Below are positions 550-63,712 of a stretch of DNA of 64,000 nucleotides, in pieces (position 1 is the first letter of the stretch; each line of letters begins with the position of its first letter). The translations under genes and the position numbers were made by a program. This stretch comes from Mesostigma viride (lineage: Eukaryota > Streptophyta > Mesostigmatophyceae > Mesostigmatales > Mesostigmataceae): the NCBI GenBank assembly GCA_009746045.1, contig RPFO01000213.1, positions 6,128,654-6,192,653 of the forward strand, read 5' to 3'. The notes under the pieces were generated by a model. The model was not told where the DNA came from. It saw only the letters and a list, made by a program, of their open reading frames with translations, and did no database searches.

Positions 550-1298
550 AGCTCATGTCCTCTCCCATTATGTGTCCCCAGGTCACACTGGGTCTGATTA
601 AATCTGGGGAGGACTGGATCTCCAAGAAATGCGTGGAACCTGTCAATGACCTGCCTCCTGCACGGCGTCTACTCAAGCTCAAGTTTGTCATCAAGATGAA
701 GGAGGTGGACGGGGTCAAGGTACCACATGTCAGGCCAGTGCTGAATGAGTTCAAGGGTACTGGTGAGTGCACTGCTGAGGAGTTGTATACCCCTGGCATG
801 CTGCATGACACTTGGAGGCTGCTGCTGTGTGTATTTCTAGGCCTTCTCAACAAGGGCTTGGACTATGGCTCAGTGGTGGTAGATTTCAAGAGAGCATTTC
901 TGGAGGGGGATGCAGATGTGGCACAGGAAAAGTGGGAGGGCAAGACGCCTTTCTATGTTAGGGTGCCTGCTGTATGGAAAAGGGACATTCACACTGAGTT
1001 CCTTAAAATCCTCAAGGGCCTGGAGGGCCTGAGGTCAAGTCCAATAATCTGGAGGGAGACTCTCAACCGTTTCCTGAAGGAGCATTGCAACTTGAAGGTT
1101 TCTCCTGTAGACCTCTGTATGTTTCTGGGGCAATGGGAAGGCCTACCAGTGTATGCTTCGCTGCACGGGGATGACCTGCACCTGCTGGCTCCTACGTCGT
1201 GGCTTAAGCAGTTGATCTCCATCATTAAGTCCAAGTTTCCTCTGGGTAGGGAGCAATGGCAGGTGGAGAATGAATTGTTAATCATCCCACGGTCCTAA
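417..1298 (+). pseudogene. Ty1/copia-type reverse transcriptase, N-terminal half, broken
   Basis: The translation follows the copia RT plan. A lysine-rich start (LLKLKFVIKMKEVDG) is followed by VRPVLNEFKGTG (the K-A-R-L-V-A-x-G region). Motif A is VVDFKRAFLEGD (canonical D-V-K-T-A-F-L-N-G), and then comes YASLHGDDLHLLAPT, where HGDD stands in the usual YVDD position. Reading ends at 1298 because a separate element with GGTCCTAAATTTAGGAC ends begins at 1291. The RT continues after that insertion at about 3031. The atypical catalytic box and missing downstream half make this copy non-functional. Family assignment is fairly secure; activity is excluded by the break. Confidence 0.75.
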
Positions 1299-23948: not shown

Positions 23949-23986
23949 GTCAGACGGGTCGCCAAGTGGGCCGACCAGCGGGGGGA

Positions 23987-24484
23987 CTAGGTAGTCCGCC
24001 GCTGACCTAGGCGGGGCCGGGGGCCCTGCGGGGCCGGCCAGGGCGGCCGGGCGGGCGGCGGCGGCTGGAGCAGGGGTGGGGGCGGCGCAGCTGTCCCCAC
24101 GACCTCGGCCGTGGCCGTGGCCCAGGTACGAAGCCGCTTGGCTGGGGCGCCGGGGACGTCGTGGCGGTGGGGCCGGCCGAGGCCGTCCGGGTGCCCGAGG
24201 CGCTTGTACCAGAACCAGGCCCCCTTGCCGTCGTGCTTCTGCTGGCAGCTGCGCAGGTCCTTGACCATCTGCTGAGCATCTGCCTTCTCAGCCTGCTCGT
24301 AGGCGGCCCTCAGAGCTGCTTGCAGCCCAGGTTTGGCGATCGGATCTCTGTTGCGGCGGAGCATCTGCCTGGCGGCGACCACTGTCGGTGCGTGACGGTG
24401 GACAGCAAGCTGCCGACGCGGAGGCAAGGTGGGGAGGGTGCGGGCAGCCAGGCGATACTTGGCGGCGACACCACGGAGGATCAC
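23987..24484 (-). pseudogene. LINE-A ORF2 segment between endonuclease and RT
   Basis: This frame joins the endonuclease C-terminus to the RT. It has a basic helical stretch (RQMLRRNRDPIAKPGLQAAL, AYEQAEKADAQQMVKDLRSC), then GAWFWYKRLGHPDG, a motif common in this linker of LINE ORF2 proteins, then proline-rich low complexity. It is out of frame with both neighbours, giving at least two frameshifts in ORF2. Confidence 0.65.
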
Positions 24485-25463
24485 TGAAATATCCCCCGGC
24501 GGCGGAATGGCGTGTAACTGCTGTCGGCTGCCCCGGCGTCGAATACGGCCAGGAAATCATCCCTGTGCGACATAGCGGCCTGCTCTTCTGCTGACATCTT
24601 GTCGGCATCCTTCAGCACAATCCGGAGCACTTTCAGATCTGGCTGAGGTGCCAGCTGTCGCGACGGTTTCACCCCAGGAAACCGCAATCTGATGCGAGCG
24701 AGCACGAGACGATGATCAGATTCCACCGTGCTGACAGAATCTTGCAGGACGCGAGCATCGACAACTGAGGGGCGCTGAGCCCGACGTACGCAGACATAAT
24801 CAAGGCACACCACCCGATCCGACGGCCCAAAAAAGGTGGCCAGCTGCTCAGCGGGGCGTGCGAAAGAAGCATTGCATGCAACCAGCGCAGATTCTGCCAG
24901 CAGATTCGCAAATAAAGGCGTGTTACCGTTGGCTGTCGTGTTGGTTGGGGAATACTGAGCGCCCCCAGTGCCAACTGGCAGCGTGGCGTTGGCGTCGAGC
25001 AGCATAACCAGGAAGTGCCGAGCTGGGATGTTGGCCTCCTCCTCCTTGAGGGCGTCGAAGAAGGCCTCACGTTCCGCCTGAGCTCGACCCGCATGTGGTG
25101 CATATCCCACGATAACGGTTAGCGTGTGGTGTGAATGGCCCTCAGTGGCCGAAAAAGTGGCCACTAGCACACGCGGGGACCGCAGCACGATGGACTGGAG
25201 CTGCTCTGATGCTGCCGGCGAGCACAAGAGGCCCACACCACCTTGGCCCGGCGCGTCGCCGCCACCATAGTGGAACCGCCAGCCTGCCGCAGGTCGTCGA
25301 CCAGCAGACCGTTGACCGCGTGCTGAGGGTCAACGGTGCGTCGGTGCTCCTGGACTCCAAGAACAGCGATCTTGTTGTCGGCGCACAGGGCGATCAGCTC
25401 GTCGACGCGTTGGCGTGCTGGGGTGCCGCCGCTCGTAGAAGGATCTGCAGGGAGGGTGCGCAC
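24481..25463 (-). pseudogene. LINE-A ORF2 apurinic/apyrimidinic endonuclease domain
   Basis: Two overlapping frames make up the domain. The first (25,463 to about 25,200) contains IAVLGVQEHRRT, the Q-E-x metal-binding box. The second (25,236-24,481) contains VIVGYAPHAG, FLVMLLDANATL (the D-x-N box), VVCLDYVCVRR and VESDHRLVLARIRL (the terminal S-D-H box). The order and residues are those of APE-type LINE endonucleases, which nick target DNA for target-primed reverse transcription. The frame change near 25,200 disables it. Confidence 0.8.
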
Positions 25464-28704: not shown

Positions 28705-36828
<8,124 letters not shown>

Positions 36829-39900: not shown

Positions 39901-40565
39901 AGTTCGGAACGGTGATAATGCCGCCTCGCCGTGGCCTAGCGTTTTATCTAGCCGCCAAGTGTCTCCCCAGGCGTCGCCAATTTATTAGCGGCCAAAGTAA
40001 AAGCAAACTTTGCCCTGCCACCTCGCGGGAAAAGTGTACTTTAGCTGCCGAGCCGTTATCAGCCTGCGCCATCCACACTCCACAACCAGCCACGTAACCC
40101 CATCCTGCGCCCTTTTTGCCCTTGTGGCCAGGAAAGCAAACGGGTGATACACAGTCTTCATAGCCATTATCTGTGTGTTCACCTTCGACTGCAGCTCGCC
40201 ACAAACTGGTCAACACCAAGGCGACGGGGGCAGAGAAACTAAAATTCGAAAGCTGTATATGGCTAGAAAGTTTTTCATATAATGTCGCCTTCCTTCTGTG
40301 ACAATAAACCGATGGGGTTTTCAACCGCGGGGCGGCTGTCCCCAGAATTGTTAAATCCTGTGCACTATCAACCCCCATGCCTGGAAGACCGCCTCGCCTT
40401 TCTGCACGAGGTAAAGCGTTTAGGTTCTAGGCTTGCCGTTGAGCGCAAGTGATGGAATTAGGTGTCAGCATGTACTCGCCTCAGTAAATGTGGCGTCCCG
40501 AGAATTTGTTTAGTCCCATGCAGACGTCGTAAATTCCACCAGGCTAATTTTTAGATTATCGAGGA
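36996..40565. other. Divergent intergenic region between TGS1 and the ergothioneine fusion gene
   Basis: About 3.6 kb with no recognised gene. ORFs at 39,944-40,378 (minus) and 39,608-39,829 (plus) lack any domain I know. A (CAA)n-like tract lies at 39,478-39,552 and a GC-rich palindromic patch at 39,612-39,710. The promoters of the two divergent genes presumably lie here, but no specific element can be assigned. Confidence 0.5.
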
Positions 40566-43500
40566 ATGGGGCATGCATTTCACATGCTTTGTCGATGGCT
40601 TCTTGCTATTGCTTGTCTGTGTAGAAATATAGCTAAGCCGCGTCATGAGCTGACGATTGTCGCAATATCCTCGTCGGCGCAGGTTGATGCCGAGATGCAA
40701 CGGGACGGGTTTACGTCGGAAAACCCGGAAGGCCTCGTTTCGCTGGCGTTCCATGATAACAGCCTCGTGTCCGACTTGCTGGCACGCCACATTTCTCAGT
40801 ACCGCGATTCCCTTGTCGAGGTAAGTACCAATGCCGGCTTCATTGGCAACTTTTTAACCCTCAAGTATATTTCTGCATAGGCCATTTGACGAACACGTGC
40901 CTACCTGCCTAGAGGACTTAGATGGTGGGAGTACGCGCTCCGGTTATTAAACAACAGTTACAGCCGCACAGTAGGTCATATTCCAAGGTCCGGTAGGTCT
41001 TACTGTTTCTCATTGAAATCCAGATGCCATTTTCTTTTCCAATCAGGCAATTAAAGATAGGAAATTCGTTGAACAATTCTAAGTCAGAACATTGGTCAGC
41101 AGCATATAATAGGTTGGGGTGCAGGGGTGTAATAACAAGCTAGTTTCAAGGGCTCAAGGCAGCTGCTTTCACAAACTTACTGTCTTGCATGTCAAAGATC
41201 TCATCGCAGTGCGCCCCTTGGGGACAAGTAGACCACTAAACACCTGTGTAATCCCTGTCGTAAATTGCTGGCGACAGCCACACTGTCCGCTCAAAGCAGC
41301 AGAGACAACTCCAGTACTTGGGGTTGGGGGGGGGGAAAGTTGAGAAATTTAAGAACGTCTAGAATGAGTTTACTGGATACAGAGTTTGGAAGCAAAAGTT
41401 TTAAGAATTTTGTCTGGGCGTAGACACCCTCATGGTTCCAACTATTCTTGTGACTGTGAGTGTATGGCTCTGTAGGGCCCTTGGCTGTCCTGTATAGCCA
41501 TATTTGGCCCTATGTGGCCCCACTATGTGACCCTATATGCTCACATCCGGCTGCACTTAGGAAAATTGTGCTACAACATCCCTTGTAGTGGCAGGTGGCA
41601 TGTGCCAGTGGCTACGTGTGCACTCTTTGCACGTTGCAGACCTGTCACTACAACGGACTTACGGCACAATGCACCCAAGTGTTGCTGGATGTAAGCATTC
41701 TACATGTAATCGTGTGCAATTAAATGCGACGCTGGCCCCCCTTGCCGTGACCACTCACAAGCCTTACGACGAACCTCCTTGCAACCAGCACACGCAATCG
41801 ACACAAGTACCCCCTCCCCTTTTCGGCGACTACTGACAATCGCACGCGGTGCCCCATGCTCCGATCTGGTGCCCCTTTTAGCGCGGGCATCCCCTACTTG
41901 TCTCCCTTGGCGTTCGTTGCCATTTCCGCCCCAATCCCCCAGCCACTTACACAAAGACACCCATCACCCGTGAATGCTTCCCCTTCTACCCCCAAAGCGA
42001 TGGCGTCCTCTGCACTTCGCCAGTCAGTACGGTGCTTGCCCACCCGTCTGCAATAACTTCTCACACGCGCAACCCTTGAACTTCCATGCTTCCCCCCCCT
42101 CCACCCAAGAGTGATGGCATCCGCTAGAATTAATGATCCCTGGCATGCTACGGTGCTTGTTTGCCCCCACTCTCACCGTGCTCAACATGCTTGTTTGCCC
42201 CCAAGCATATCTTAACTACTCAACATGCTTGTTTGCCCCCTAGCATATCTTAACTACTCAACATGCTTGTTTGCCCCCTAGCATATCTTAACTACTCAAC
42301 ATGCTTGTTTGCCCCCAAGCATATCTTAACTACTCAACATGCTTGTTTGCCCCCAAGCATATCTTAACTACTCAACATGCTTGTTTGCCCCCAAGCATAT
42401 CTTAACTACTTGCAACCGGGATCACGCCCATCGCCCTGCGATGCTCCCCCTTTCACCCCCCCCTAGAGGGCATCCACGACGAGTCCTCCTTGGCACAACA
42501 ACTTCTCATGCACACAACCTTGCCCTTGTTCTGCCACATCCTTGGCCCCCCCCCCCCCCCCCGAGCAGACTGAAGGCATTCACTACGAGTCCTCCTACGG
42601 GACCGCCTCCCTGCGTGCCTCCATCGCGTCCTACCTGGCCCGCTTCACCTTCCGCCATGTCGACCCTGAAGCACTCGTCGTGTCCAGGGACGTCTCCTCC
42701 TCCCTGCAGCTGCTCATCAACTCGTTGGCCGAGGCGCGGGCATCCCTTGGCAGCCGCTCGGGCAGCTCCCGCAGCAGCTCGGGCGGCGGCTCCTCCCCCA
42801 CGTCAAGCGCGGGGGAGGGGGGATCGGGGTCTGCATCCGTGGCCACCCCGCGTGCGCGGTTTGCGGTCCTCACGCCATCGCCCATCATGGACTCTCACAT
42901 ATGGGCGCTGTCACGTGACCCTCTGGTGGGTGCCTTTTCCGTAACAAAGTCTTTTTCTGTTACAAACTCTACATGTGCCCCTTTGGACACAAACTCTTTT
43001 TGCGTGTGCGTGTTTTATTGTTGTAGTTTTGCCGTTCGGGAGAGATTTCTGGCCTGGCCTTTTGGCGCATCGCTTGGCAATGCGCGCTGCATTTTGGTTG
43101 GCCCCGAGGAGGTCATGTTGTCGGCAGGGTGATCAAGTCAGCAAAATGCAAACGTCTGTAAGGGCATGGCGGGGAATCAGGACCATGTCTGATTGGTCCA
43201 GAAACGAGCGCAATTCTCTGAGTGATCTGGTTTGCACAGTTTGTGGGTGACCATGACTGTAGCCCCCAGGGCCACCTCCACCCCCCGGGCCCACTCCATT
43301 CCCCGGGCTTTGGCCTTCCTCCCCCACCCACGTCACACTCAGGTCCGTCTGATGGAACCACCCCAAAGCATAACAGTATGGCTATATTTATTACCTCCAT
43401 GGCAGTACTACTATATTTATCACCTTATTATATTTATTACCTATTTACCAGGCGGTACTACTATATTTATCACCTATTTACCAGGCGGTACTACTATATT

Positions 43501-46500
43501 TATCACCTCCAGAGCGGTACTAAATTTATTACTTCTTCGTAATCTCTGCCAAAACATAGCAGTATATTTACTACCTAGCAGCACTATATTTTCTACCTCT
43601 ATTAGTAATCTCTGCTTGTGTTGGCTCTACTGCTGTTTGCTGCTCGTTCACTAGGTTTCGTTTTCAGTGACCCCCCCCAAGGGTATGCTCAAACCTAGTG
43701 CACTTTTCATGCCTCGATCATGGCCTGCATTTGTCAGGTCGAGTGCTGCCCCGTGCCCGTGACGGCCGCCACTGGCTACACGCTGGACGAGAACGAGCTC
43801 TCGGCCGCGCTGGCCCGTGCCGAGTCCCAGGGCCTCGAGGGCCTCGCGCTTCTCCTGACAAACCCGAGCCACCAGCTGGGCCGCGCCTACTCGGCCCACC
43901 AGCTGCGCTCCTTTGCACGCTTTGCAATGACCCACGGCCTGCACCTCATCTCGGACGAGACCTTTGCCTCGCACGTGTTCATGCCGACGCCCGCAACGGG
44001 GGTCACCGCGCCGTCCGTCTCCGAAGCTCCTGAGCGACCCATGGATGAGGTCATGGGTGGGCTCAGCCACGGTGGGGCGTGGGATGTGGCTCCCCTGCAG
44101 AGTGCGGCGCTCCAGGCCCGCAGCGGCTTTGTCTCGATACTCGACGCCTGGGACGCTGAGCTGGCGGCCCAGGGGCTCCCGCCCCACCTAGGTGCCGCTG
44201 CCCTCTCGGCCGCGGTGGGTTGTGGCACCAACGAGGCCTCCCGGTGCATCAGAGGTCCGTCAGACGAGGGCAGGAGCAGGAGGAGCAGCTCGGAAGGGTC
44301 GCTCTCTGGTTCTTCCGAAGATGGCACCACCACGCCGACCGAGAAAGAGGACGCAGGGTGTGTTATGCTGGCATCTGGGAACGGTCACGGGGCTACCCAA
44401 GGCTTTGGCAACGGCGATGGCAAGGGCCAGTCTCCCACCCTCCCGGTTCAGTACGGCTCCCCCCGAGGGACCCCCCTGTCGGCGTCCCTGTGCTCCCCCC
44501 ACGTGGTCAGCGGGCTGGGCAAGCTCGGGTCGGAGCGCCTGCGTATGGGCGCCGCGTACATCGGCTGCCCGCACGTGCTGGCGCTCGCACGCGTGCGCTC
44601 GCGGCTGCACACGGCCCCGCTGGACACACAACAGATGATGACCCACGTGCTGGCGCCCGCGCCAGGGCAGGGGCAGGGGCTGGCTGGTGGGGTGGGTGCT
44701 GCGGGGGCAGGGTCCGCCTGCTTTGTGGACGAGCTGCTGGCGACGCTCCAGTCCCGCCTTGCGGAGAACTACGACACGGGTGGGTTACCAATAAGTAACT
44801 TAATATGGTATCGTTCATGATTAGAGTTGGTGGCGGAGAACGTTGGCGCGTGTGCGTTGGGTATAAAGAGACAAGGAATATGTGGGTTAGTAGATGTTTC
44901 CTATTGCGCAGGTTTTTATTATGACACAGTTGAGTTGAGTGGAGCTACGATGAAGGCTGGGTGTTATAGAGCCGCTGCTGGCCGCTGGGTACTTCGTAGG
45001 GCCTGTAGTGCCTGATATAGAAGAGCATGTTTCAGCCACTTCTGCTCTCTTCTTTCAGCCACCCCTGCTCTCTCGGTTCAGCCCATTGCAACGCACCCAT
45101 CCCCTTGCTCGTGCTTGCACTTGCTTGCACTTGCTGGCGACTGACCCCACCCGTCTTGTGTTTATCTCTGGCACCCGTCCCCACCCACCCATGTTTTTTT
45201 TCCCTTGTGCTTGCCTATGCGCCCCTACACTTGCCTGTACGCACCTGCACGTGCCCATACGCGCCTACACTTGCCCATACACGCCCACGCGTGCCCATAC
45301 TCGCCTACGCGTGCCCATACTCGCCTACACGTGCCCATACTTGCCTACACGTGCCCATACGCGCCCACACGTGCCCATACACGCCCACACGTGCCCATAC
45401 GCGCCAGTCGTGCGGGCCATGGACCGCTACGCCATCCCATTCCTGCGCGCGGATGCCGGCGCGTCCGTGTGGCTGGACCTGCGCGCGGCGCTGCCGTACG
45501 TCACCTCCGCCTCCTCCACCCCTCCCCCCCGCGCCGCCAGTGCCGGCAACGTCACGACCATGGTGGCCAAGGGGAGCGGTCGCCGCAGCAGCAGCCACGG
45601 TGGCTCTGCGGATGCCAGCAGCGACGAAGACGTCCCCTCCCTGGTCCCTCTGATGGGGGCACGCTCTCACCTCTCCCTAGGGCCCCGCAGCCACAGCACC
45701 GGCAAGCTAAGCCAGGCTGGCGTCAGCAGCCCCAACGGCAAGTTGACGAATGGGATGGCTGCCAACAGCGTGAAGCGCGAGGGGGTTTTGGACGCGGAGG
45801 GCGGCAAGGGCCAGGGTGCCCCTGGGCAGGGCCTCGCGTCCCTGGGGCAGGCGTTTGCGGCGGAGGACCGGCTGCTGGAGGTGATCCGGACGGAGGCGCG
45901 GGTGCTGCTGGCGTCCGGCGGGATGATGCACAGCGCGGAGCCTGGGTGGTTCCGGTGCGTGCGGCAGCATGGGTTGCGTTGTATGGTGTGGGATGCGTGC
46001 GTGGCAGGATGTACTATAGTGGGCGTGTATAAGTAAGTTGTATTTAAGATGTACTATAATGGGCGTATAAAAGTAAGTTGTATTTAAGATGTACTATAAT
46101 GGGCGTATATAAGTAAGTTGTATTTAAGTTACCATTTGTACTACTATTCCAAAGGGTGCATGTTTGTGTTATCTATGAGTGTGCCAGCATGTAGTGCATG
46201 GCATGTGCGGTACGAGTGCAAAATGCCAGCCTCTAAAGGATGTCCGAGAACTGCGAGTACTGGCTACTTCTCGTCTCTACGTCTCTGTCTCCAACGCCGG
46301 TTTCGCTTTTCCCTATACTGACTTGTCGCCCCGCAACCCCATGGTCACATGCTGAATTCCTTTGGTTTGGGGTAAGATGTAGTTTTGTGTTGTTACATTC
46401 ATAACATCCATGTCATTAAACCCATGTCATTACATGCCGTACCCCTTGTTATATCCCAGGCAACTGGGTATGATCATTAATCAAATACTGCTGCTAATTA

Positions 46501-49500
46501 ATGAAAGCATCCAACTGCATCATGTGGGTCCCAACAAACGAATGTCGACCCCTTCAGTACACGACAAGATTGATACGATCATCAACCCCTCATTCGTATC
46601 CATTTCTGCACACACACCCACACCTTTACCGCCACACCCCCTTACCCCGGTCATGCCCCCCAGGCTGTCCTTTGGCGTCCCCGCCAAGCCCCTGGGCCGT
46701 GCGCTCGCCCGCCTCGGCGCCCTCGTGCGCTCGCGCTTCCCCGCGGTGTGTGCGGCGCGCTACGCCGAGCGGCTGGACGAGGCGTGGCGCCGGACAGACG
46801 TCATCTTCTCCATGCTCGGCGGCGACAAGGCCAAGTTCCTGCACCGCCCGATCGGCCAGCGCCACCCGTTCCTCTTCTACCTAGGGCACCTGCCCGCGTT
46901 TGCCGTGAACATGGCGCGCCGGTCGCTCGAGAACGCTCTTCCATTGGGCAGCAATAACAATACCAGTAATAATAGCAATGGCGATAATAAGCTCTCGTCG
47001 TCTCTGTCTTTTTCTGTGAGTGCGTCCACCAAGACCACGTCCTCGGGTCTCAAACCCACCGCATCTTCTGAGCCACCCGTCTATTTCACCGAGGGCGTCG
47101 GCTCAGCCCCCGGGACATGGACCGTGGTCAGCCCCAACCTGTCCTTTGACGAGCTGTTTGAGAGGGGCATCGACCCCGATGTAGATACCGGCACATGTCA
47201 CGCGCACAGCGCGGCCATCGATTTCGACAAGTGGCCCTCGGTAAAGGAGGTCGCGGGATACCGGGACGCCGCGCGCGCGCTGTTCTTGGCGGCGCTTCAC
47301 CCGCTTCTGGCGACTGCCACCCCCGCGGGCGCCGCCACCTCGTGGTCCGACGAGGCGGCCGCATTGCTGCTGGCCAAGGAGGGGTTGTCCGGCGGTGCGG
47401 ATGCGATTGCAAGTGCGAATGAGAGTAAGAGTGGGAGCGCTCACGCGCTGCCCAGCCGCCCCGCGGCCCCCCTGCCCAACCGGCACATCATCGACATGGT
47501 GCTCGAGCACGAGCTCATGCACCAAGAGACGCTCATGTACATGTTCTTGCAGGAGGGGCTCGAGCACAAGCAGCAGCCGCGCGGCGTGCGCGAGTGGGGC
47601 CAGCCAGCCTCCCTGGACCCCAACCCCGCGAGCATCTCCGACCGCAACGGCAACCCTGCGGACGCCCGCAATGGCGGCAGCGTCGGCACGTGCCTAAAGG
47701 AGGCGGGGACCAAGTGCCACGGGATGGGCACGGAGGGCGCCGCAAAGGGCACCGAGACAAGCTCGTTGTCGGCAGCCAAGGATGGCGTTGTGCGCCGCCC
47801 GGGCGTGCGGGACGAACAGATGCGCAAGTGGGTGTTTGTGCCGCCCGGCCCGGTGGTGATCGGTCAGCCTGCGCCCGGCCAGGCCGGCACGCCCTGTCAG
47901 CCCACGCCCTGTCCCCCTTGTCCGCCGGCGCCCTACCAGCCCCCGCCTTGCAATCCCACGGGCGAAATGTCCAGTTCTGGTGTGGGGATGTCGGTTGAAT
48001 GCGCGGTGGACAGCGATGGCAGCGGTGGGGCAGCGGCTAGCAGCGAGTGGGGGTGGGACAACGAGTTTGGTCAGCGGGTGGTGGACGTGGGAGGCGTGCT
48101 CGTGCAGCGGCTCCCGGTATCCAACGCCAACATGCTCCAGTTCCTGGCGGACAGAGGCTACGAGCGCCAGGAGTTATGGGAGGCAGGGGACTGGGCGTGG
48201 CGGGAGCGTGAGGGGCTGAATTGGCCCATGTCTTGGGTGCGGCGGTCAGCAGAAGATAGTGGGGGTGGTGTTCCTCCTTCTTCTTCTCCTTCTTCTCCTC
48301 CTTCATCATCTTCTTTGCAGTCGTCGTCGGCGCCCGCCCCCTGGCTGGCTCTGGCGGACCAGTTCTGCTTCCGCTCCATGTTCCGCCACGTTCCCCTGGC
48401 CGATGTGCTGACCTGGCCCGCCATTGTGTCCCAGGCTGAGGCCAGCGCGTACGCTCGCTGGCTGGGGGACGACGTGCGGCTGCTAACGGAGCCCGAGTGG
48501 CTGCGCGCGGTGTATGCCGACCCGGCCGCGTATGGCGCCCCCGACGAGGCGGAGAGGCAGCTCCCGCACCCGTGGGGGCGGGCCCCGATGGCGGAGGGCG
48601 TGCGGGCGAACGTGGCGTGGGGATGCTGGTCCCCGGCACCCATCGGCGCGTTCCCGGCGGGCGACTCGTGCTCGGTAGGCCATGATGTTCTGGCGCTTGC
48701 GTGCTTTTTTGGTGGTGCTTGACTCGTGCTCAGCACAGTGTGATTGCATCCGTCTTATTGCTCTTTTGGATGCCATCCGTGGCTTTACTGTGCGCTTTTT
48801 GCTGCCATCCGTGGCTTTATGGTGCGCTTTCTGCTGGTTTCATTGTGCGCTTACTGCTGGCATCTGTGGTTTATTGTGCTCTTGTTGCTGGCATCCCGTT
48901 GTTCTCGTCATCATCCCCCTTGCCATCCCGCCGCCCCAGGGCCTACGTTAACTCACACACCATCATACCTCATTACCATTCCCTGCACCCCCACAACGCA
49001 TCTCCCTTGCCATCCCGCCACCGCAGGGCCTTGTCGACACGCTGGGCTCTGGATGGGAGTGGACCGGGACACCCTTTGGCCCCCACCCAGGGTTTGCCCT
49101 CCATCCGGCCTACCCGGGCTACTCGGCCGACTTTTTCGACGGGAAGCACTTTGTGATGCTGGGTGGGTCGTGGGCCACTGACGCCTGCATGCTGCGGCCC
49201 AGCTTCCGCAACTGGTTCCAGAGCCGGTACCCATACATGCTCGCAAAGTTCCGCTGCTGCCGGCCGGTGAACACATTCCAGGTATGCGGCAGCAGTAGTG
49301 GCATGTAGTGTAGGTCTAGATCTGTTATAGGGTTTTTGTCTACGTAGCACCTTCCAGGTATGGTTAGTTTGACTGCAGCCATTGAAAGATTCTGTAAAAT
49401 ATGTTTTGTATAAAGTTAGTATGGTTAGTTTGACTGCAGCCATTGAAAGATTCTGTAAAATATGTTTTGTATAAAGTTAGTATGGTTAGTTTGACTGCAG

Positions 49501-52500
49501 CCATTGAAAGATTCTGTAAAATATGTTTTGTACAAAGTTAGTGAAGGTCTTAAAAGACGTATCGTACTAAAGCTTTCCCTGTTTTGTCTTTGGTAAGATC
49601 CAGTAGAGGCCACAAGACTGCCATTGGAAAGTTTCTTGTGCCTTTTCATGTTGGAAAGTTCCAAACTGACAAGCCCCAAGTTTAAATAATGTGTGCAGTA
49701 AAGCCCAACATGCCCTGAGCGTGATGTTACTATACTACTATAGATTCATTTCAAATGATAAATTACAGAGGTGAGAGTGGCATGCAACATAAGGAAAACC
49801 CCCCAAAGAAGAAGAACCCTGAAGAAAATATAAATAATCGGACACGGGCATGCAAGGAGCAAGCCAGCACAAGGTACAACTAACTACAACACAAAACTAC
49901 GAGGGCCACGCAGCAACATCATTTCTATATACATACTACAGTACCAAAATTGCATATTATAACTACATGAGAAGTGTATCCGCTCCACCCACACACCACC
50001 AAGCAGGCGTCGTTTGCTTCTTTGCGTCCTGGCTCCCTTGGCTGTGTCACTGCGTCCTTGCATTTCTTAACTACCCTGTACATCGTTCGTCCGATCCTCA
50101 CTTTCTTGCTCGCGTTCTTGCGTCCCTGCCTGTACCTTGGCTGCCCTAACATATATTGCCAATCTTGCGTCCCCAGGACATGCTGGAGGGCGCTCACCTT
50201 GCGGAGGTGGGTGCGGGCGTGGGCGTGGGCGTGCTGGAGGGCGTGCAGCACGTGGGGCAGAGCAGCACAGGCGTGCGCAAGGTCGTGCTGGGGGGGGTGG
50301 ACCACGGCTCCAGCGATGCCGCGCACAAGGGTGAGTGGTGGTACGAGTTGGCATGGGAGCGGGAGGGGGGGGTCAAAGGGATGGTGGGGGAGAAGTAGGT
50401 GGGAGTGAGGGAAGTAAAAGGTTGTGCAAGCGGGAGAAAAAGGTGGGGTTGAGGGAGAGAGAGAGAGAAGAGTTAAGAATTCATGATGTAGAAGAAGGGG
50501 GGAGGAAGTGGGCAGGGTGAAGGGGTGAGGTGGGAGAGGAGAGAACAAAGGGGATGGGAGGGGGAAGAGGACAGGGGGAAGGGAGGGCCACCATTGCTAG
50601 CTAGTTGACATCGTCCCTCACGAATCAGAGGAGGGAGATGTGGTTGGCGTAGGACGGGTTGCAGGCGCCAGCTTTGAAATGAGGGAATGGGACTTGCTGG
50701 TGTTGATTAGCTGGTGGGGGGTGGAAATACGAAGATGAGTTTGTGGCAGTGATGGCAATGGTTGTTTTATTCCTGTCCAACAAACTTTTCCTCAGATCAG
50801 GTTCAAACGCAAAGTACGCTTTACTGAATTCAACATGATATCTGTCAATGTTGTCAATTATTACCCACGCCGCCACCACCACCACCACCACCACCACCAC
50901 CACCACCACCACCACCACCACCACCACCACCACCACCACCACCACCACCACCACCACCACCACCACCACCACCACCACCACCACCACCACCACCACCACC
51001 ACCACCACCACCACCACCGCTGCCACCTGTGCCATGCTGTGTGCTGTCCACAGGAGGAGAAAGGGAAGGAGCCAGCGGAAACAGCGGCGCGATCGAGGGC
51101 GGCAACACGGCCAGCGGGGGGGACCACCTGGTGCAGTTTGCGGCCGATGTGCTGGCGGGGCTGTCCTCCAACCCCAAGCGCCTGTCCTCGCTCTACTTCT
51201 ACGACGACGCCGGGTCCGAGATATTCGCACAGATCACGGAACTGGACGAATACTACCCGACCAGGTGGGCAGACAGGTCCATATCTGTCATCAACGTATC
51301 TATACTGCTACAGGATTTGGAACCCACCCACCTGGGGTATCTTGAGACGTAGCCCATGAGATCAAGCCCAAATCTTTTACCTAAACAGTTGTAGGTGTTT
51401 AGGCCCCTTCTGCTTCTATGGGCCCCCGTTGGACCGCAGTGTTTTTTTTAGATGATCTTATACCTTTGAGGCGGGTGGTCGAGTGATATTGTCCTAGTTC
51501 CCTGTGACTATCTTCCCTGATCATTGAAATCCCCAGTACCTTGATCACGTGGGATCGCGGAAACAGCCCTAATCATGTAAAAGACCCTAAACCCTGAACT
51601 TTGAACCATTATTTCTGTGTGGCTTTATCAGGGTTCATCAAGCAACCTGGCACGTCAACAGCTATCTTATAAGATACAGTACGTCAATAGGACTGGCATT
51701 AGCTTTAGGAAAGCCTCGCGAGATTACCAACACAAGAAAGTGGTGGCTTGTTCCTCGACATACCCCTAGTGTGACCACAACTATCTCTCACTACAATTCC
51801 TCTAGTGCCTATTCCTTCCACGTCATAATGCCTCATATTGAACCAGGAGTGATCCTCGACCCTGCTTGCTGAACATCTCTACCTTACTTTTCTTAACCCA
51901 TCTTCCTAATACTGCTGCTGTTGAAATCGCTGCTGCTGCTGCTACTGCTGCGCCTGCTACCCTACCAGGTGTGAGGCCGAGATCCTGGCGTCTGACACGG
52001 GGGGCGGCGCGCTGGTGGCGCACACATTTGCGGCAACAGGGCGCGACGGCTTCAACCTGGTGGAGCTGGGGGCGGGCGATGGTCGCAAGACACGGCTGCT
52101 GCTGGAGCGCATCCTTGACATACAGGTAGCTATTATTAGTGCAGCGGTGGCTGATAGTTAGATACAGTGGTCAGGAGCCAGGGACAGGTTGCTATTAGTG
52201 CAGCGGTGGCTGATAGTTAGATACAGTGGTCAGGAGCCAGGGACAGGTTGCTAATGGTGCAGCGCTTTACAGTGTAGGATATTGGTAGTGTAGGATGCAG
52301 GTGAGCGCATCCTGGACGTACAGGTGGGGGGAAAAGGTAGCATGAGTGATGGTAGGACATACAGGTGCGATGGGGGCTAGGGCCGTAGCTGGGGTTGTTG
52401 TAGTATTAATGCAGCGTATAGCAGTGATGGTGTAACAGCGGAGCGTCCATGTGCGCCGGGGACACGTTCCTTATGGTGCATCACATGACAGTGTCAGGGT

Positions 52501-54565
52501 AGGTAGGATACGAGACACCCGAGCGAGCCAGGGATATTATGAAAAAGTGTGGCATATAACACGGGTAATGTGTCGATGACACCACCAGTGCATGGTACAA
52601 GGCATCCAGGGGAGCCGGGGAGGAAAGGGACAAAGAGAGGTAGTGCATACGGCTCTTTCTCTTGAGATAGGTGTAGGCTGCGTACGGTGGCCGAAGACAT
52701 GGCATATCAAGGACTCGTGAAGGTGAGCCGAGGTGAGTAAGTAGCTGCTAGTGCATTATGGTCCCAAGGCACAGAGTGGTAGCATAGAGAAAGTAGTGCG
52801 ATACATTTGTCCTCGTAGTAGTTGGGCAGTGCAGAAGAAAAAACTACTTGGTTCATTTGTGAAGGTTATCGCGCCTGATGATGATGTCAGGTCGAGGGCC
52901 AGTCAGCGACGGAGGATCGGGTTATGCATGGCACTCAAAGCATAATCCAGGGGACCTGATGAACTATTTAAAGCGCAGGATGAGAAGCCCCACTTGATAG
53001 CGCATGGCGCAGGTATCAACCCACCGCGTATACCCCACCGCGTCCGCTAATACTCCATGGTCCCACGTCCACCCCTCCGCCGCCGCATCGCAATCCCTCC
53101 ATCGCTGCGCGCAGGATGAGCAATGGCGACAGCACGACACCACGGGGGCGCCCGCCCCCATCCCCTTCTCCTTCATGCCCATTGACGTGAGCGAGGGCGC
53201 GCTCGAATCTCTGGCAGGGAAGCTATCGTCCCTGACGCACGGCCGCAAGCACAACCTGGACATGACCCTCGTGGTGGGCGACAGCACCGACGGACTGCGG
53301 TGGATGTGCTCTTCGTCGTCACGGCGCAACCTGGTCCTCTTCCTAGGCTCCAGCCTGGGCAACTTGGACATGGACCAGTCGGGCAAGGTGCGTGTCATGG
53401 AGGTGGACTGCTAGTTGACTGTTACACAAAAGATATTGCTCCTTATTGCACCCTCCATGTACTATAATGGTCCTACTTTGTAAACTGGATAGTAGTACTT
53501 GGACAGGCATCAGTCAGGGACGGTGCATCTTACATTAGTGGAATGCTTCTGTGGTACATAATCTTTAGCGGCTGACAGATTATGGAAGTGAAATCGGCGA
53601 CACAAGTGTGAGACACGAAACAGATGAACCCTAGCAGGTGGGTAAATAGGCAAGGCAAGAACCCGGCAAGTGGGTAAACATGGCAACACAAGTGTTAGAC
53701 ACGAAAGACATTATTCCCTAGCAAGTTAAAACGGAACCGCGTCTTTGCTCGGCCTACTTACTCACCTGCCACTTCCTTGCCTTGTGCTTTATGATACATT
53801 TGCCACTGTACAAAAGCAGTTCTAATGTGAAGCTATGGCATGTGCATTGCTTTGCCTGTCTGTCCACGACACGCGTGGTCGCTGTATGGTTGCTGTATAG
53901 TAACATGTGCTATTTATAGCAACATGCTTGTTCAGTACTGGATAAAGCGAGCCAATCCACATCCTCTCGCCTGCCTTCTGTCCCCGTGCCAACCCCACCC
54001 GTCATTGACCCCCCCCCCCCCCCCCCCTGCATCCCCACCGCCAAACCGCTCCTCCCCCCAGTTCTTGCGCTCGCTTTACAGCTCGCTCAACGAGGGCGAC
54101 CTCCTGCTGGTCGGGTTCGACCTTCGCAAGGACATCAAGGTCATGCAGGCCGCCTACGACGACGCGCGTGGCGTGACGGCCGCGTTCAACTACAACCTGC
54201 TCACCCGCATCAACCGGGAGCTGGGCGCCGACTTCGATGTCTCCAAGTTCCAGTTCTACTCCACCTATGACGCCCAGGAGGGGGCCATTATCAGCAGCCT
54301 GGTCAGCAAGGAGCCCCAAACAGTGCGCATCAGCGGGCTGCCGGCGGCGGCCGCGTCGGGCGGAAGTCTGCCCGGTCCACGGGAGTTTTTCTTTGACAAG
54401 TGGGAGGCGGTGTTCACTGAACGGAGCGTCAAGTACACGATGGCCATCGTGCATGATCTGGCGGCGCGCGGCGGGTTTGAGGTCGTCGAGGACTTTTATG
54501 ACAGCCGGCAGTGGTTCGTGGACTCGCTGTGGCGCGTCCGCAAGACGCCAGTGTCGTCTGTGTAA
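40566..54565 (+). CDS. PLP enzyme-EgtB-EgtD fusion (putative complete ergothioneine synthase)
   Basis: Eleven exons: 40,566-40,820, 42,569-42,925, 43,738-44,779, 45,408-45,954, 46,664-48,674, 49,027-49,281, 50,177-50,330, 51,054-51,264, 51,969-52,125, 53,115-53,387 and 54,062-54,565. All introns are GT-AG, and the phases (0,0,1,2,0,0,1,2,0,0) close to 1,922 codons including the stop. Order: ACC-synthase-like fold-type-I PLP domain (~50-760), DinB_2/EgtB (~765-1045), FGE-sulfatase (~1120-1489), linker, EgtD methyltransferase (~1560-1921). EgtD makes hercynine from histidine, EgtB adds cysteine as the sulfoxide, and a PLP C-S lyase would release ergothioneine. Exon 5 itself joins the PLP C-terminus to EgtB, which argues strongly against separate genes. 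Residues 7-19 are hydrophobic, so the start is uncertain. The lyase role is inferred. Confidence 0.85.
42181..42408 (+). repeat. Six tandem 38-bp units in intron 1 of the fusion gene
   Basis: CTCAACATGCTTGTTTGCCC followed by CC(A/T)AGCATATCTTAACTA is repeated six times without spacers. It lies 160 bp before the exon 2 acceptor. Confidence 0.95.
43400..43515 (+). repeat. ~33-bp tandem units in intron 2 of the fusion gene
   Basis: GGCGGTACTACTATATTTAT then CACCTATTTACCA is repeated about three times, with degenerate flanking copies. Confidence 0.85.
45226..45407 (+). repeat. Minisatellite ending at the exon 4 splice acceptor
   Basis: Roughly ten copies of an 18-bp unit (CACACGTGCCCATACGCG type). 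The last unit's GCGCCAG provides the splice acceptor at 45,406-45,407. Confidence 0.85.
46013..46128 (+). repeat. Three tandem ~43-bp units in intron 4
   Basis: GTACTATAATGGGCGTATAA then AAGTAAGTTGTATTTAAGAT is repeated three times. Each unit contains a GTAAGT that resembles a splice donor. Confidence 0.9.
46734..47590 (+). other. egtB: Module 2a: DinB_2 domain of Egt1-type EgtB
   Basis: [20 protein letters not shown] then [16 protein letters not shown] is the Egt1/EgtB iron-site entry region. [15 protein letters not shown] with CHAHS and [18 protein letters not shown] is the signature of fungal-type Egt1. [15 protein letters not shown] supplies the H-x3-H-x-E iron ligands (His1016, His1020, Glu1022). 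EgtB is a non-haem-iron sulfoxide synthase that couples hercynine with cysteine (or gamma-Glu-Cys) and O2. A Ser/Asn-rich insert (46,945-47,080) lies between the two metal-binding halves. Confidence 0.88.
47826..49281 (+). other. egtB: Module 2b: FGE-sulfatase domain of EgtB
   Basis: [13 protein letters not shown] opens the fold; a Pro/Cys-rich insert follows, then [36 protein letters not shown] and WMREG-like [16 protein letters not shown]. Exon 6 supplies [38 protein letters not shown] and [17 protein letters not shown], the C-terminal Egt1/FGE signature. The exon 5 to 6 join ([14 protein letters not shown]) is phase 0. In EgtB this domain frames the substrate pocket above the iron. Confidence 0.88.
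49361..49540 (+). repeat. Three tandem ~59-bp units in intron 6
   Basis: ATGGTTAGTTTGACTGCAGC then CATTGAAAGATTCTGTAAAA is present three times with almost no changes. Confidence 0.95.
50873..51018 (+). repeat. (CCA)n microsatellite before the exon 8 acceptor
   Basis: About 48 uninterrupted CCA triplets end 35 bp before the acceptor at 51,053. The apparent poly-His, poly-Thr and poly-Gly ORFs are artefacts. The exon phases place the tract in intron 7. Confidence 0.95.
51054..54565 (+). other. egtD: Module 3: EgtD histidine-specific methyltransferase
   Basis: [20 protein letters not shown] then [12 protein letters not shown] crosses the exon 8/9 junction exactly as in EgtD proteins. [20 protein letters not shown] is the SAM-binding loop, [15 protein letters not shown] the D-V-S motif, [14 protein letters not shown] the G-x-x-x-G-N motif, and [18 protein letters not shown] the substrate-side Tyr/Asn region. 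[16 protein letters not shown] retains the E-x-S pair (Glu1874, Ser1876) that holds the histidine imidazole in bacterial EgtD. The family is Methyltransf_33 (SAM-dependent N-alpha trimethylation of histidine). The exon 7 linker (50,177-50,330) is Gly/Val-rich with no domain. Confidence 0.9.
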
Positions 54566-59526: not shown

Positions 59527-62500
59527 TTAGGTGGAGGGCAATTTCAAAATAGCCCGCCAGGCCCGAGGGGGGCAGGCGGCCATGGCCCGAAGAATAACCT
59601 CAGGCAGCTGCACCTCCAAACTGCGGTGCAAGCCCACATAATGGGCAACCGTGGAGCTGCTAAGCCAGCGCCCCCGGCCCTGGATGTCCCCCATGCTGCG
59701 ACCCGCGAGGAAATCGTGAGTGGCACCTCCATGCCGCAGCCCGTGAATGGTGAAAATCTGGGCGACCCCCAAGGCCTGACTCGCAGCCTGCCAAATGCGC
59801 CGGAATTGCGGGTAGGTGAAAGGGAACACGGCCTCCCAAGCGTGCTTACCCGCGATGCAGTGACGGAGGATGGTTTCAGACATCACATCTTCTACCACCA
59901 CTGACTGAGTCTTGCCCTTAGAGGTCTTGGTAGACCTCAGCAGTAGGGCGCCCCGTTGAGCCGGCCCAAGCCGAACGTCAGGCTGGAGGCGCACATGGCC
60001 AACACGGAGGTTCAGCGCCTCCGAGATTCGCAGGTAATGGCGGAACACGATGACAACCAGCAGGCCCGCAAGGCGCTGACCTTGCATGACCATCGTGCTG
60101 GCAAGTGCAAACGCCGCCTCCCATGGAATGGGAGGAGGGGCACGGGGGGGCACAAGTGTTTTCCACCCAGCGAGGACGCCACGGGCCAAGTCCCACCGCT
60201 TCACCATACCGGGATAATAAAGTTGCAACCCCATCAAGGCATTGACACACACTTGGCGGCTGTACCCCCGAAAATGAGCCCAGGCGACATACGCACAAAA
60301 TGTCTCCTCAAGGGTGTCAGCTCGTGACGATGACCCGTCCGCCCGCCCACCAGCCTCCCACCAAGTCAAGAGGGAATCAAGACCACGACGGTAGGCCAGC
60401 AAAGTAGCCGGCTTTACTTTCCCCTCTAGCAATGGAAGGTAGCTAACAGGTGCAGGGGGCCCCGGGTTAGGATGGATGCCTTCCGCGGTCAGGTCGCGCA
60501 CCCAGCCTGCCAAGAAAGTCGCCATGGATTGGCCGCGAGAAACGCCATCGGCTGGTTGAAGTGCACTCGGCGTCCACACCCACTGGGAACGACTCCCCGT
60601 GGCGAGGGTCAGCGCGCACAAGCGGCGGCACTGCTTGTTGAGCTTGTGGGATGAGGACCGCCCCTTAGCCAAGCAGCCCAACGCCGCGGTGGAGTCCACC
60701 AACCTCACCACCCGCTTGCCTCGGTTTGCCAAGCTGCGCGCACTCCTCTCCACGCCCTTCACTGCAGCCCGCACCTCCTTCTCGTTGATGTGCATCCCCG
60801 GATCCCGCCAACGACTCCGGACCCCAACCCGCCATTGCTGGCTAGTGATTGCTTGTTGCGCCCGCGCGCTCAGTGGCCTAGGGCCAGCGTAGGCCACCTC
60901 ACTTGGTATGAGCAAAGTCGGGTACCCCCGCACCTCTCGTGCCCTCGCCAGCTCCGTCACATCGCCCGGCTCCATGGTTGCGTACACGACACCTTGCCCG
61001 TAGGTGGACGCGTCAGATGCAACCACCTCACGGGCCAAAGGTGCGCTTCGGTCAACCCTTAGCATGGGAGCCAAGGCCAGGGCACACTCTAACTCCTCCC
61101 GCACCCCGGCCCACAGCACCCAGGATCGCTGCCCCCACCCTTGCAGGCTGATGAATTTGAAACATTGCTGCCAAATGGACAAGCAGCTGCGGCTTAACAT
61201 CTGCAGCCACAACCACCGCCCCAAGACGGCAGCCAGCCCCTCGGCCGTAGCTCGGCCTCGAGTGAGTATAGCCTGCGTGTGGGCGATCACAAGGTTGAGC
61301 TGCTTGACCGTTGGTTCCAGCACGCCGTTCCGTCGGTGCACCACCCCTAGGGCTTCTAGCTCGTCCCCTTCCAGGCTCGCCATCTTAGTCTTCTCCTTAG
61401 ACGGCACAAGGTTGTTAGGGAGGTAGCCTTCCTCAATAGCGCGCGTGATGAGCTGGTTCACCGCCTCGCAGGTCCGCCCGTTGCTGGCCACCAAGTCATC
61501 AATAGTGATGGACAGCATGGGGGCAGGGGGGTTTTCCAGGTCAATCTGAAGCTCCCCGGCGCGCTCCTCCTTGTACTCGATGGCCAAGCGCAGTGGCTGG
61601 CCACACTCGTCGCGCACCAAGGTGAGCTCACCTGCGCTTGAGAGGTAGTTGACCTGGCGCCTCGGATCCAGGGCACCGGTCATGTAGAGCACCATCTCAT
61701 GGATGGCCTCCCCCAGCGCCACCGCATGGGAATGTCCCATGGCCAGCACCTTGAGCACGGGCCACACCTTCCGCCTGGGCCCTGCCAGACCTACGCTAGT
61801 CGACCACACACTAGGAAGCCCTTGGTAGTCCCACCACCACTCGGGCACCTCGATGGAATAGTAGTATGACACGAGGTCGCTCTTGGCGCAGTAGCACCAG
61901 CCTTTGATGTAGACCTCCACGAGGATGCCCAGGTGGGGTAGCAGGATCTTGGGGGGGTCCACCCACAGCAGGTTGCCCAGCTTCCTGTTGACGATGAACC
62001 GAAGCTCACCCACCCCCTTGGCCACTCCAAAGCAGCCATCCACCCACTTGGGCCGCCTCTCCCGGAACGCCACCATGCCCACGCCCGCTGCCCGGCTCAT
62101 GAGCTTGCCCCATTCAGCCATGGAGCATCCCCGGCTGGGCTTGGGCACATTCCAATACTTTGCGCTCGCCACGACCGCTGGCTTGATGCAGTTCTCTTCG
62201 CTGGCATATATCTCCCGCCAGCTCGGCCGCATAGCCAACAGGTCGAGCAGCCGTGCCTTCCCCGCCACCTCCGCCTTTGGTAGACTCACCGCGTCCGCGC
62301 GCAGTTGTTCATACTTATTCTGCTTCCCATATATTGCATCAGCACCTTCTTGCTCCTGGCCTGTCGCAACGCCCCCTACGCGGCGACTGTGCCAGGTGCA
62401 GTGCCTCTTGACCCTCGCAAGGGCCTCCTCCCTCCCCTTAGAGCACGCCCCTCTAGGGTTAGGAGGAGGGTCTTGCCCCCCTCCCCACAGCCAATTAAGC

Positions 62501-63180
62501 CAACGCACTACCTTGCATTGCAGTGTGTACTCGCGGTGGCGGCGCGTGGCACGCTGTCGCCGGCGTGCCGATCTCACCCTGCCCCACGCGGTGTACGCTG
62601 GCCTAAGTGGGTATGGCAGCGGGAAAAGGGAGCGGTCCCGCTGGGATTCTATTTCCCTACTTGTTGAGCCTTGCTGAGCTTGTCCAAGAGGATGGCAGTT
62701 TGGAGAGCTGCCTTGACAGCCGGGGTGGCTGACAGTGCAGCCTCCTCCCCCAATGGCAGGAGGTGGCTGGCCACCTTCCACCCCCCCCCTCCTTGCCCTT
62801 CCACCTGCAGCAAGGCCGCCACCACCCTCATTAGGTACTCCATGCCCACAAGCTCCCCGGCTGCTGAGCCCAGCTCCTTGAGAAGGGTGTCCATGGCCAA
62901 TGCAATGTTCATGACAATTTTCCTGTTCTCCATGTTCCGCCAATTTCCAGGCTTTACCGTCATGACCCACGACCGGATTCCCATCCCATTGTCGCTGGCG
63001 TCCTCCAACACCCCCGGCAGCACCCGCTCCGAAACCCGATATTTCACGCTCTTGGCGGGCGTCCCCAACATCTACTGCTCCAATTTTGGTACTTTTGAAA
63101 TTCCATGCCTGGAGCGCAAAGTTTGCAATATATGTGCCGTTTGTAGCTCTAGCTCTATAATAACCTGACCAACCCCGCAT
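59527..63180 (-). CDS. Pol: reverse transcriptase-RNase H-tyrosine recombinase
   Basis: An intact 1,217-codon ORF. RT: SDLVSYYYSIEVPEWWW (motif A) and MLSITIDDLVASNG (motif C as I-D-D), followed by PSKEKTKMASLEGDELEALG, the DIRS-type thumb. RNase H: VASDASTYGQGVVYA, HINEKEVRAAVKG, VVRLVDSTAALGCLAKG and WVWTPSALQPADGVSR supply D, E, D, D. GIHPNPGP at residue ~901-908 precedes the recombinase. Recombinase: FRHYLRISEALNLRVGHV (Arg), FTIHGLRHGGATHDFL (His-x-x-Arg) and SSTVAHYVGLH (Tyr), the complete R-H-R-Y set. The first ~270 residues have no recognised domain and the true start may be internal. The recombinase would integrate a circular DNA copy without target duplication. Confidence 0.9.
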   Translation of the reverse strand: MRGWSGYYRARATNGTYIANFALQAWNFKSTKIGAVDVGDARQEREISGFGAGAAGGVGGRQRQWDGNPVVGHDGKAWKLAEHGEQENCHEHCIGHGHPSQGAGLSSRGACGHGVPNEGGGGLAAGGRARRGGVEGGQPPPAIGGGGCTVSHPGCQGSSPNCHPLGQAQQGSTSREIESQRDRSLFPLPYPLRPAYTAWGRVRSARRRQRATRRHREYTLQCKVVRWLNWLWGGGQDPPPNPRGACSKGREEALARVKRHCTWHSRRVGGVATGQEQEGADAIYGKQNKYEQLRADAVSLPKAEVAGKARLLDLLAMRPSWREIYASEENCIKPAVVASAKYWNVPKPSRGCSMAEWGKLMSRAAGVGMVAFRERRPKWVDGCFGVAKGVGELRFIVNRKLGNLLWVDPPKILLPHLGILVEVYIKGWCYCAKSDLVSYYYSIEVPEWWWDYQGLPSVWSTSVGLAGPRRKVWPVLKVLAMGHSHAVALGEAIHEMVLYMTGALDPRRQVNYLSSAGELTLVRDECGQPLRLAIEYKEERAGELQIDLENPPAPMLSITIDDLVASNGRTCEAVNQLITRAIEEGYLPNNLVPSKEKTKMASLEGDELEALGVVHRRNGVLEPTVKQLNLVIAHTQAILTRGRATAEGLAAVLGRWLWLQMLSRSCLSIWQQCFKFISLQGWGQRSWVLWAGVREELECALALAPMLRVDRSAPLAREVVASDASTYGQGVVYATMEPGDVTELARAREVRGYPTLLIPSEVAYAGPRPLSARAQQAITSQQWRVGVRSRWRDPGMHINEKEVRAAVKGVERSARSLANRGKRVVRLVDSTAALGCLAKGRSSSHKLNKQCRRLCALTLATGSRSQWVWTPSALQPADGVSRGQSMATFLAGWVRDLTAEGIHPNPGPPAPVSYLPLLEGKVKPATLLAYRRGLDSLLTWWEAGGRADGSSSRADTLEETFCAYVAWAHFRGYSRQVCVNALMGLQLYYPGMVKRWDLARGVLAGWKTLVPPRAPPPIPWEAAFALASTMVMQGQRLAGLLVVIVFRHYLRISEALNLRVGHVRLQPDVRLGPAQRGALLLRSTKTSKGKTQSVVVEDVMSETILRHCIAGKHAWEAVFPFTYPQFRRIWQAASQALGVAQIFTIHGLRHGGATHDFLAGRSMGDIQGRGRWLSSSTVAHYVGLHRSLEVQLPEVILRAMAACPPRAWRAILKLPST

Positions 63181-63712
63181 TCCTCAAAGTAGCACTTGTT
63201 GCCTATTCTCAAATGTTATGCGAATCACATGATTAGGATCTGCTTCACGATTGCTATTGCTCGAGATTCAATTAAGAATGATTGAGATCAATAAATGATG
63301 AACCAAATAAACCAAATTAGGCCACTTGACAAGTTCATGATCCATTTACATTGTACAATTAAGCGATTAATTAATTCATAAATCATACATTACATGGGAT
63401 ACCCCCGTCGACGAGCTAGTGGTACGTACAATGAAACATTTGAGTTTGTAACATGTCTCCATGGATATATACATGTATGCTGGACCTCGCGCATCTCAGC
63501 CCTCTAAGAAATGTTATTTGAACTCAGGTCTAGATCTAAATATATACATGATCTGGATAATATTATACACTTCCTTAAAAGAGCATGAATCGAGCTTTAC
63601 AATTCAGGACAAGGAACTCGTTTGCAAATCACGGCTGAAAGGCAAGTGCTCACAACGAAGCACGTGCTCTCAAGGCTGTCCACCTCGTCCAACCAAGCCC
63701 GGGCGAGCTGGC
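63181..63712. other. AT-rich spacer, no gene seen
   Basis: The spacer between the pol ORF and the partial upstream ORF has scattered ATTAATTAAT-like words but no repeat matching A2. Confidence 0.5.

Follow-up and report, generated by a model that had tools for sequence, protein, structure and literature searches.

Ergothioneine systems and the Mesostigma locus

Fungi make ergothioneine from histidine, cysteine, S-adenosylmethionine (SAM) and O2 through EgtD and EgtB joined in one protein, Egt1 or EgtA (PMC4020840, PMC5066259; further background in PMC9890322), and S. pombe Egt1 serves this pathway (PMC4020840). The fungal lyase Egt2 is a separate protein, and EgtE/Egt2 are described as cysteine-desulfurase-like (PMC4020840). 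Here we analyse a gene of the streptophyte alga Mesostigma viride, located at 40,282 to 54,565 on the forward strand of a 64,000-nucleotide stretch of contig RPFO01000213.1 (the window), whose predicted product carries, from N to C terminus, a pyridoxal phosphate (PLP) enzyme, EgtB and EgtD. It resembles Egt1 in holding EgtD and EgtB in one protein but differs in their order, which is EgtD-EgtB in the fungal enzyme and EgtB before EgtD in the fusion. The fused PLP module also belongs to a different PLP family than the EgtE/Egt2 carbon-sulfur (C-S) lyases, whose reaction it presumably shares. On the sequence evidence, we consider it fairly probable that the gene encodes a three-module ergothioneine synthase in which a PLP module of the 1-aminocyclopropane-1-carboxylate (ACC) synthase family acts as C-S lyase.

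Plants were reported to make ergothioneine in April 2026 (Kock et al. 2026, PMC13358676). That report defines plant EGT1 by the order methyltransferase then FGE and, within the KCM grade, the deepest of the streptophytes, records it from Klebsormidium nitens. Plant EGT1 and the candidate gene of Mesostigma have in common that they are ergothioneine genes of streptophyte algae; however, plant EGT1 has the methyltransferase before the FGE domain, and the comparison rests on this order, the trees below being built without plant EGT1. Fusions of OvoB with OvoA, reported for hydrozoans and bacteria (PMC9103826), resemble the Mesostigma protein in joining a PLP lyase to a sulfoxide synthase, but they belong to the ovothiol pathway and carry the OvoA methyltransferase instead of EgtD. 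This comparison concerns the module make-up and the OvoA side; a plasmid search aimed at OvoB returned an ovoA without a neighbouring lyase. OvoB-OvoA fusions and fungal Egt1 are the closest precedents of the PLP-EgtB-EgtD architecture. In Acidobacteriota, Rokubacteria and other bacteria, related EgtB and EgtD proteins are encoded by separate genes.

An earlier note on this DNA knew of no described protein with this architecture. Among the papers listed by our full-text searches of the open-licence literature, none describes a PLP-EgtB-EgtD protein, and to that extent the ergothioneine-type form appears to be new. On the other hand, the joining of a PLP enzyme to a sulfoxide synthase as such is already reported for OvoB-OvoA, and the arrangement is not peculiar to this locus, as nine proteins with a PLP domain joined to EgtB were found (see below).

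Gene model and domain architecture

The eleven-exon model of the earlier note splices to 5,766 nt, that is 1,921 amino acids plus the stop codon, and its ten GT-AG introns and closing phases were confirmed. A protein database search returned the published model Mv00300-RA.1 (EukProt jgi/Mesvir1; here P0001; 1,925 amino acids) with 100% identity over 98% of the query; in PhycoCosm, Mesvir1 is the name of the Mesostigma viride portal (PMC9164057). When the gene is read in 12 exons from 40,282 onward, its translation matches P0001 in every letter. Exons 2 to 11 of the earlier model agree with the published one, but the earlier model begins elsewhere, at 40,566, and does not share its first 39 codons with P0001; homology favours neither N-terminus, and the additional intron of the published model (40,411-40,682) is GT-AG. 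The gene model and the architecture of the protein are well supported by the sequence. The features of the 12-exon version are as follows.

40282..54565 (+): whole gene, Mv00300-RA.1, 12 exons, 1,925 amino acids; P0001 reproduced in full on splicing
40282..40410 (+): first exon of Mv00300-RA.1, which the earlier note's model lacks; match to P0001
40683..40820 (+): exon 2, where the PLP domain begins (exon 1 of the earlier note is 40566-40820); splicing, match to P0001
42569..42925 (+): exon 3, PLP domain; splicing, alignment with relatives
43738..44779 (+): exon 4, PLP domain, with Asp281 (43954-43956) and the PLP lysine Lys470 (44521-44523); residue alignment
45408..45954 (+): exon 5, carrying the PLP domain through PGWF plus two bases of the Arg738 codon; splicing, alignment
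46664..48674 (+): bridging exon, with the PLP domain end, DinB_2 beginning near 46770 and the larger part of FGE; Pfam, alignment
Within 46664..48674 (+): putative EgtB iron-ligand sites, His813 (46887-46889) and HX3HXE (47508-47528)
49027..49281 (+): end of the EgtB (FGE) module, including SFRNWFQ; Pfam
50177..50330 (+): linker exon from EgtB to EgtD, without homology support of its own; splicing, alignment
51054..51264 (+): first EgtD exon, module from about 51137; Pfam, structure-sequence match, alignment
51969..52125 (+): EgtD exon with ELGAGDG; splicing, EgtD match
53115..53387 (+): EgtD exon with Asn1750 of LGSSLGN; EgtD match, alignment
54062..54565 (+): last EgtD exon, with Tyr1790, the TERS motif and the stop codon; splicing, alignment

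In the single translation, Pfam places Aminotran_1_2 (3.3e-14), DinB_2 (4.7e-6), FGE-sulfatase (8.8e-28) and Methyltransf_33 (2.6e-85) in this order, which, together with the published model, agrees with the earlier proposal of one gene with three enzyme modules. Two details of the proposed join were also found as described: the arginine codon of PGWFR is split by the phase-2 intron 45,955-46,663, and in the exon 46,664-48,674 a single open frame runs from the end of the PLP domain into EgtB. Chance or mis-splicing was rejected as the source of the PLP-EgtB combination, because one exon carries both and the alignment of the relatives continues through the join with no gap longer than three residues. 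Contaminant origin was ruled out by the introns and by the placement of the gene in a 14.3 Mb contig of the 440 Mb Mesostigma viride assembly.

Repeats occur in the introns of the gene: a 38-base unit is repeated six times in tandem at 42183-42410 (+), and a long stretch of CAC lies at 50874-51017 (+).

The EgtD and EgtB modules

The C-terminal module scores 263.5 bits with the EgtD profile, below the NCBIfam cut-off of 290.9, versus 128.4 with EasF, and it matches the EgtD structure 4uy6 at 4.2e-44. The histidine-binding residues of M. smegmatis EgtD are Tyr, Asn, Tyr and Glu-x-Ser. Tyr1611, Asn1750 and Tyr1790 of the Mesostigma protein align with M. smegmatis EgtD, and Glu1878-x-Ser, lying beyond the end of that alignment, is recognised by motif only. 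This module keeps 80 of 88 invariant columns, and its identity as EgtD is well supported by sequence.

The middle module comprises DinB_2 and FGE domains, keeps 116 of 147 invariant columns and has, beside its iron motif, a further histidine that is presumably the third iron ligand of EgtB. The motif itself is HX3HXE, named as the EgtB iron motif in PMC4020840. Both modules are of the ergothioneine type, as had been claimed from the letters alone, and for EgtB this is further indicated by the trees.

Bacterial rows came from the genome scan described below (45 of 45 EgtD rows; 62 of 64 EgtB rows, two under 350 residues being dropped), and P0012, a fungal protein, was left out of the EgtD tree and the EgtB tree with bacteria. 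A further tree, of EgtB with OvoA, was built on a hand-picked 17 of the 62 bacterial rows and contains one very long branch (Picosynechococcus EgtB, 4.46). There, the fused EgtBs group with the fungal Egt1 relatives, apart from OvoA (99/98 versus 100/97), and EgtB-IV sides with OvoA. The fungal EgtB shares one large fork with the fusions, but sits nearer to myxobacteria (99/98 and 88/89). Neither EgtB tree fixes whether the fusions form one clade. In the EgtD tree, Mesostigma groups with P0003 and P0002 (99/90), and the fusions plus Plasmodiophora form one clade (100/99), at a great distance from fungal EgtD; a tree that unites the seven fusions to the exclusion of Plasmodiophora was not rejected (approximately unbiased test, p-AU 0.447).

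The PLP module and the relatives of the fusion

Two protein searches, each over 5.8 billion proteins with 8,000 candidates scored, gave 6 and 19 matches, including the nine proteins in which the PLP domain is joined to EgtB. Five of these (P0001 to P0005) have the complete PLP-EgtB-EgtD arrangement, among them P0003, an Nk52 gene; this prefix denotes Chromosphaera perkinsii, an ichthyosporean (PMC6981761). P0005 is compact, at 1,183 amino acids, and its PLP lysine is Lys219. P0007 and P0008 start inside the PLP domain and continue into EgtB and EgtD, whereas in P0006 and P0010 PLP is followed by EgtB and the protein stops short of EgtD. P0011 to P0014 are fungal, with EgtD before EgtB in both of the two scanned. 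A viral origin was discarded: 58 pattern matches in viral contigs yielded none that was confirmed.

The ACC-synthase-like character attributed to the PLP module was borne out by its fused relatives. Sequence comparison was run on P0002-P0006 and fold comparison on the model of P0005, with the Mesostigma PLP domain alone left out. By sequence, the solved relatives fall among the ACC synthases and the class I aminotransferases or lyases, with plant ACC synthases closest (7.5e-76 versus 3.7e-27 for the next family). The fold comparison, which mostly covers residues 7-381 of a model whose EgtB part has a predicted local distance difference test score (pLDDT) below 50 over 731-856, likewise gives ACC synthases (1m4n, 1iax, 7dlw) as the closest solved relatives. 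The cysteine-desulfurase-type family of EgtE/Egt2 is absent from the PLP-module matches shown, and of the PLP families in Pfam, Aminotran_1_2 alone matches at E≤1e-3. In the residue comparison of the fused rows, from which P0008 is left out, the equivalents of Lys470, Asp281 and Arg738 are kept in all eight. In the PLP tree, where P0007 and P0008 fill less than half of the columns, the nine fused domains fall within a clade of 12 of their own (95/88), with the ACC synthases outside.

Proposed pathway and alternatives

The ergothioneine pathway is the likely assignment of the Mesostigma protein. EgtD, at the C terminus, would use SAM to trimethylate histidine, giving hercynine; EgtB, the non-haem iron enzyme in the middle, would convert hercynine, cysteine and O2 to hercynylcysteine sulfoxide; and the PLP module at the N terminus, derived from the ACC-synthase rather than the EgtE/Egt2 family, would cleave the C-S bond to give ergothioneine. 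The modules, being fused, may hand over the intermediate. The PLP module probably cleaves hercynylcysteine sulfoxide, as suggested by two observations: PLP-dependent C-S cleavage is the step missing from EgtD plus EgtB, and 9 of the 12 members of the PLP clade are joined to EgtB. For the wider statement, that a deep-branching streptophyte alga, an ichthyosporean and uncultured organisms hold the whole pathway in one polypeptide, with an ACC-synthase relative taking the sulfoxide directly from EgtB as C-S lyase, we lean slightly in favour.

If so, this would be, as far as our literature search goes, the first case of a single protein covering the ergothioneine pathway from end to end, a ready single-gene construct for ergothioneine production, and a new lyase family beside EgtE/Egt2. 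Green plants would then have two ergothioneine systems of opposite domain order, and the plant pathway may have more than one origin event. A definition of EGT1 requiring the methyltransferase before FGE would miss the Mesostigma gene.

Several observations weigh against a lyase role, and they give some substance to an alternative that we consider unlikely: a single protein whose PLP module is degenerate, structural or active on another amino acid, with a separate EGT2-like enzyme finishing ergothioneine. Among the fused PLP domains, that of Mesostigma has diverged most (branch 1.94); it retains 47 of 74 invariant columns, a lower share than the EgtB and EgtD modules of the protein. The residue equivalent to ACC synthase Asn202 is Asn in four of the seven fusions with data, Ser in two and His in Mesostigma; at Tyr233, half of the eight have Tyr and half, including Mesostigma, Phe. 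With two PLP-holding residues thus changed (Asn to His, Tyr to Phe), activity is least sure in this alga. Three PLP-only entries lie inside the fused clade, P0022 (378 amino acids) and P0025 and P0034 (about 230 amino acids), which may be fragments or free enzymes. P0009 of Plasmodiophora brassicae has EgtB-EgtD in the order of the fusion without PLP in its model. Some hercynylcysteine sulfoxide is reported to be converted by PLP itself (PMC4020840). Finally, Kock et al. (PMC13358676) report EGT2 homologues in all plants analysed, so that a separate EGT2-like lyase may exist in Mesostigma. Against this alternative, Lys, Asp and Arg are kept in every fused row compared, and the PLP-EgtB pairing recurs in nine proteins, two of them from an alga and an ichthyosporean, organisms distant from each other; we prefer the C-S lyase role.

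The absence of PLP from the P0009 model is either a loss or a missed 5′ part.

It is very improbable that annotation merged neighbouring genes and that Mesostigma makes the PLP enzyme apart from EgtB-EgtD, or EgtB apart from EgtD, as distinct proteins. Both gene models are predictions, and the two linker junctions between EgtB and EgtD (49,281/50,177 and 50,330/51,054) fall at gaps of the four relatives aligned, which makes this join the least supported by homology; these points favour a merger. Six of the eleven junctions (after 40,820, 44,779, 45,954, 48,674, 51,264 and 53,387), on the other hand, are flanked by 20 gap-free columns in the four relatives, the PLP end and EgtB start share an exon and frame, and the relatives are single proteins of the same order. 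The EgtB-EgtD fusion is indicated by the closing frames, the published model and the presence of both modules in one protein in relatives.

Even less credit is given to the PLP module being an ACC synthase, or another SAM-linked enzyme serving methyl-donor turnover instead of sulfur chemistry. In its favour, ACC synthases are the closest solved relatives in sequence and fold, and SAM is also used by EgtD. However, Tyr85 matters for ACC synthase function, and it is replaced in all seven fused rows covering the site (Ser in Mesostigma); Glu47 is kept in five of six, with Asp in Mesostigma. Since these changes come with the mixed pattern at Asn202 and Tyr233, and ACC synthases, unlike the module, have Tyr85 and lie outside the fused clade, ACC synthase activity is unlikely. 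Least credible of all is another mercaptohistidine product, ovothiol or selenoneine, from an OvoB-OvoA-like fusion: the make-up resembles those fusions (PMC9103826), ovoA_Nterm outscores the EgtB profile on the middle module, and for P0005 the match to OvoA 8khq is nearly as good as that to EgtB-IV, but ovoA_Nterm also exceeds EgtB in both fungal EgtD-EgtB proteins tested, the tree parts the fused EgtBs from OvoA, and the methyltransferase is EgtD, so the OvoA-like reading of the module was set aside.

Bacterial loci and origin of the modules

Genomes of 84,980 prokaryote species were scanned with two peptide patterns taken from EgtB, which put PLP-only relatives outside the reach of the scan; 64 EgtB loci were found. 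No fused PLP domain was seen in these loci, with no match to query residues before 361; a fused-type PLP enzyme near egtB was found in 0 of 64 at E≤1e-5, and a Pfam scan of nine open frames from six of the loci gave no PLP enzyme. EgtD was present within the stretch examined in 45 of the 64 and downstream on the same strand in 32; in 31 of the latter the two genes overlap or are separated by no more than 200 bases. Downstream egtD is missing from all ten loci with the best scores, which belong to Rokubacteria, Thermoanaerobaculales, deltaproteobacteria and others: six are without EgtD in the stretch, two have it upstream and two on the opposite strand. This counts against a simple derivation of the EgtB-EgtD half by fusion of the closest pair of bacterial genes, a proposal only weakly borne out and not retained; a bacterial egtB-egtD pair is a possible source. 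One old fusion followed by PLP loss in Plasmodiophora and spread by transfer are both possible, and the origin of the fusion may be separate from that of fungal Egt1.

Two loci on Caballeronia plasmids (L071, L072) carry relatives of the fusion-type EgtB, with neither EgtD nor a fused-type PLP enzyme detected in the stretch examined.

Other elements in the window

Rfam and tRNA scans of the window found nothing. An open frame of 1,218 codons at 59527-63183 (-) has a C-terminal tyrosine-recombinase match (Phage_integrase, 8.1e-7), and its middle looks by eye like a DIRS/Ngaro-type reverse transcriptase, without Pfam support. Another frame, at 22689-24287 (-), encodes a reverse transcriptase (RVT_1, 3.5e-26) of a non-LTR-like element; the frame 24481-25329 resembles an endonuclease by eye, without a Pfam match. 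A fragment of a Copia-type reverse transcriptase (RVT_2, 1.4e-7) is located at 414-1298 (+), and a 719-codon open frame with one WW domain at 33391-35550 (-) is probably an exon of another gene.
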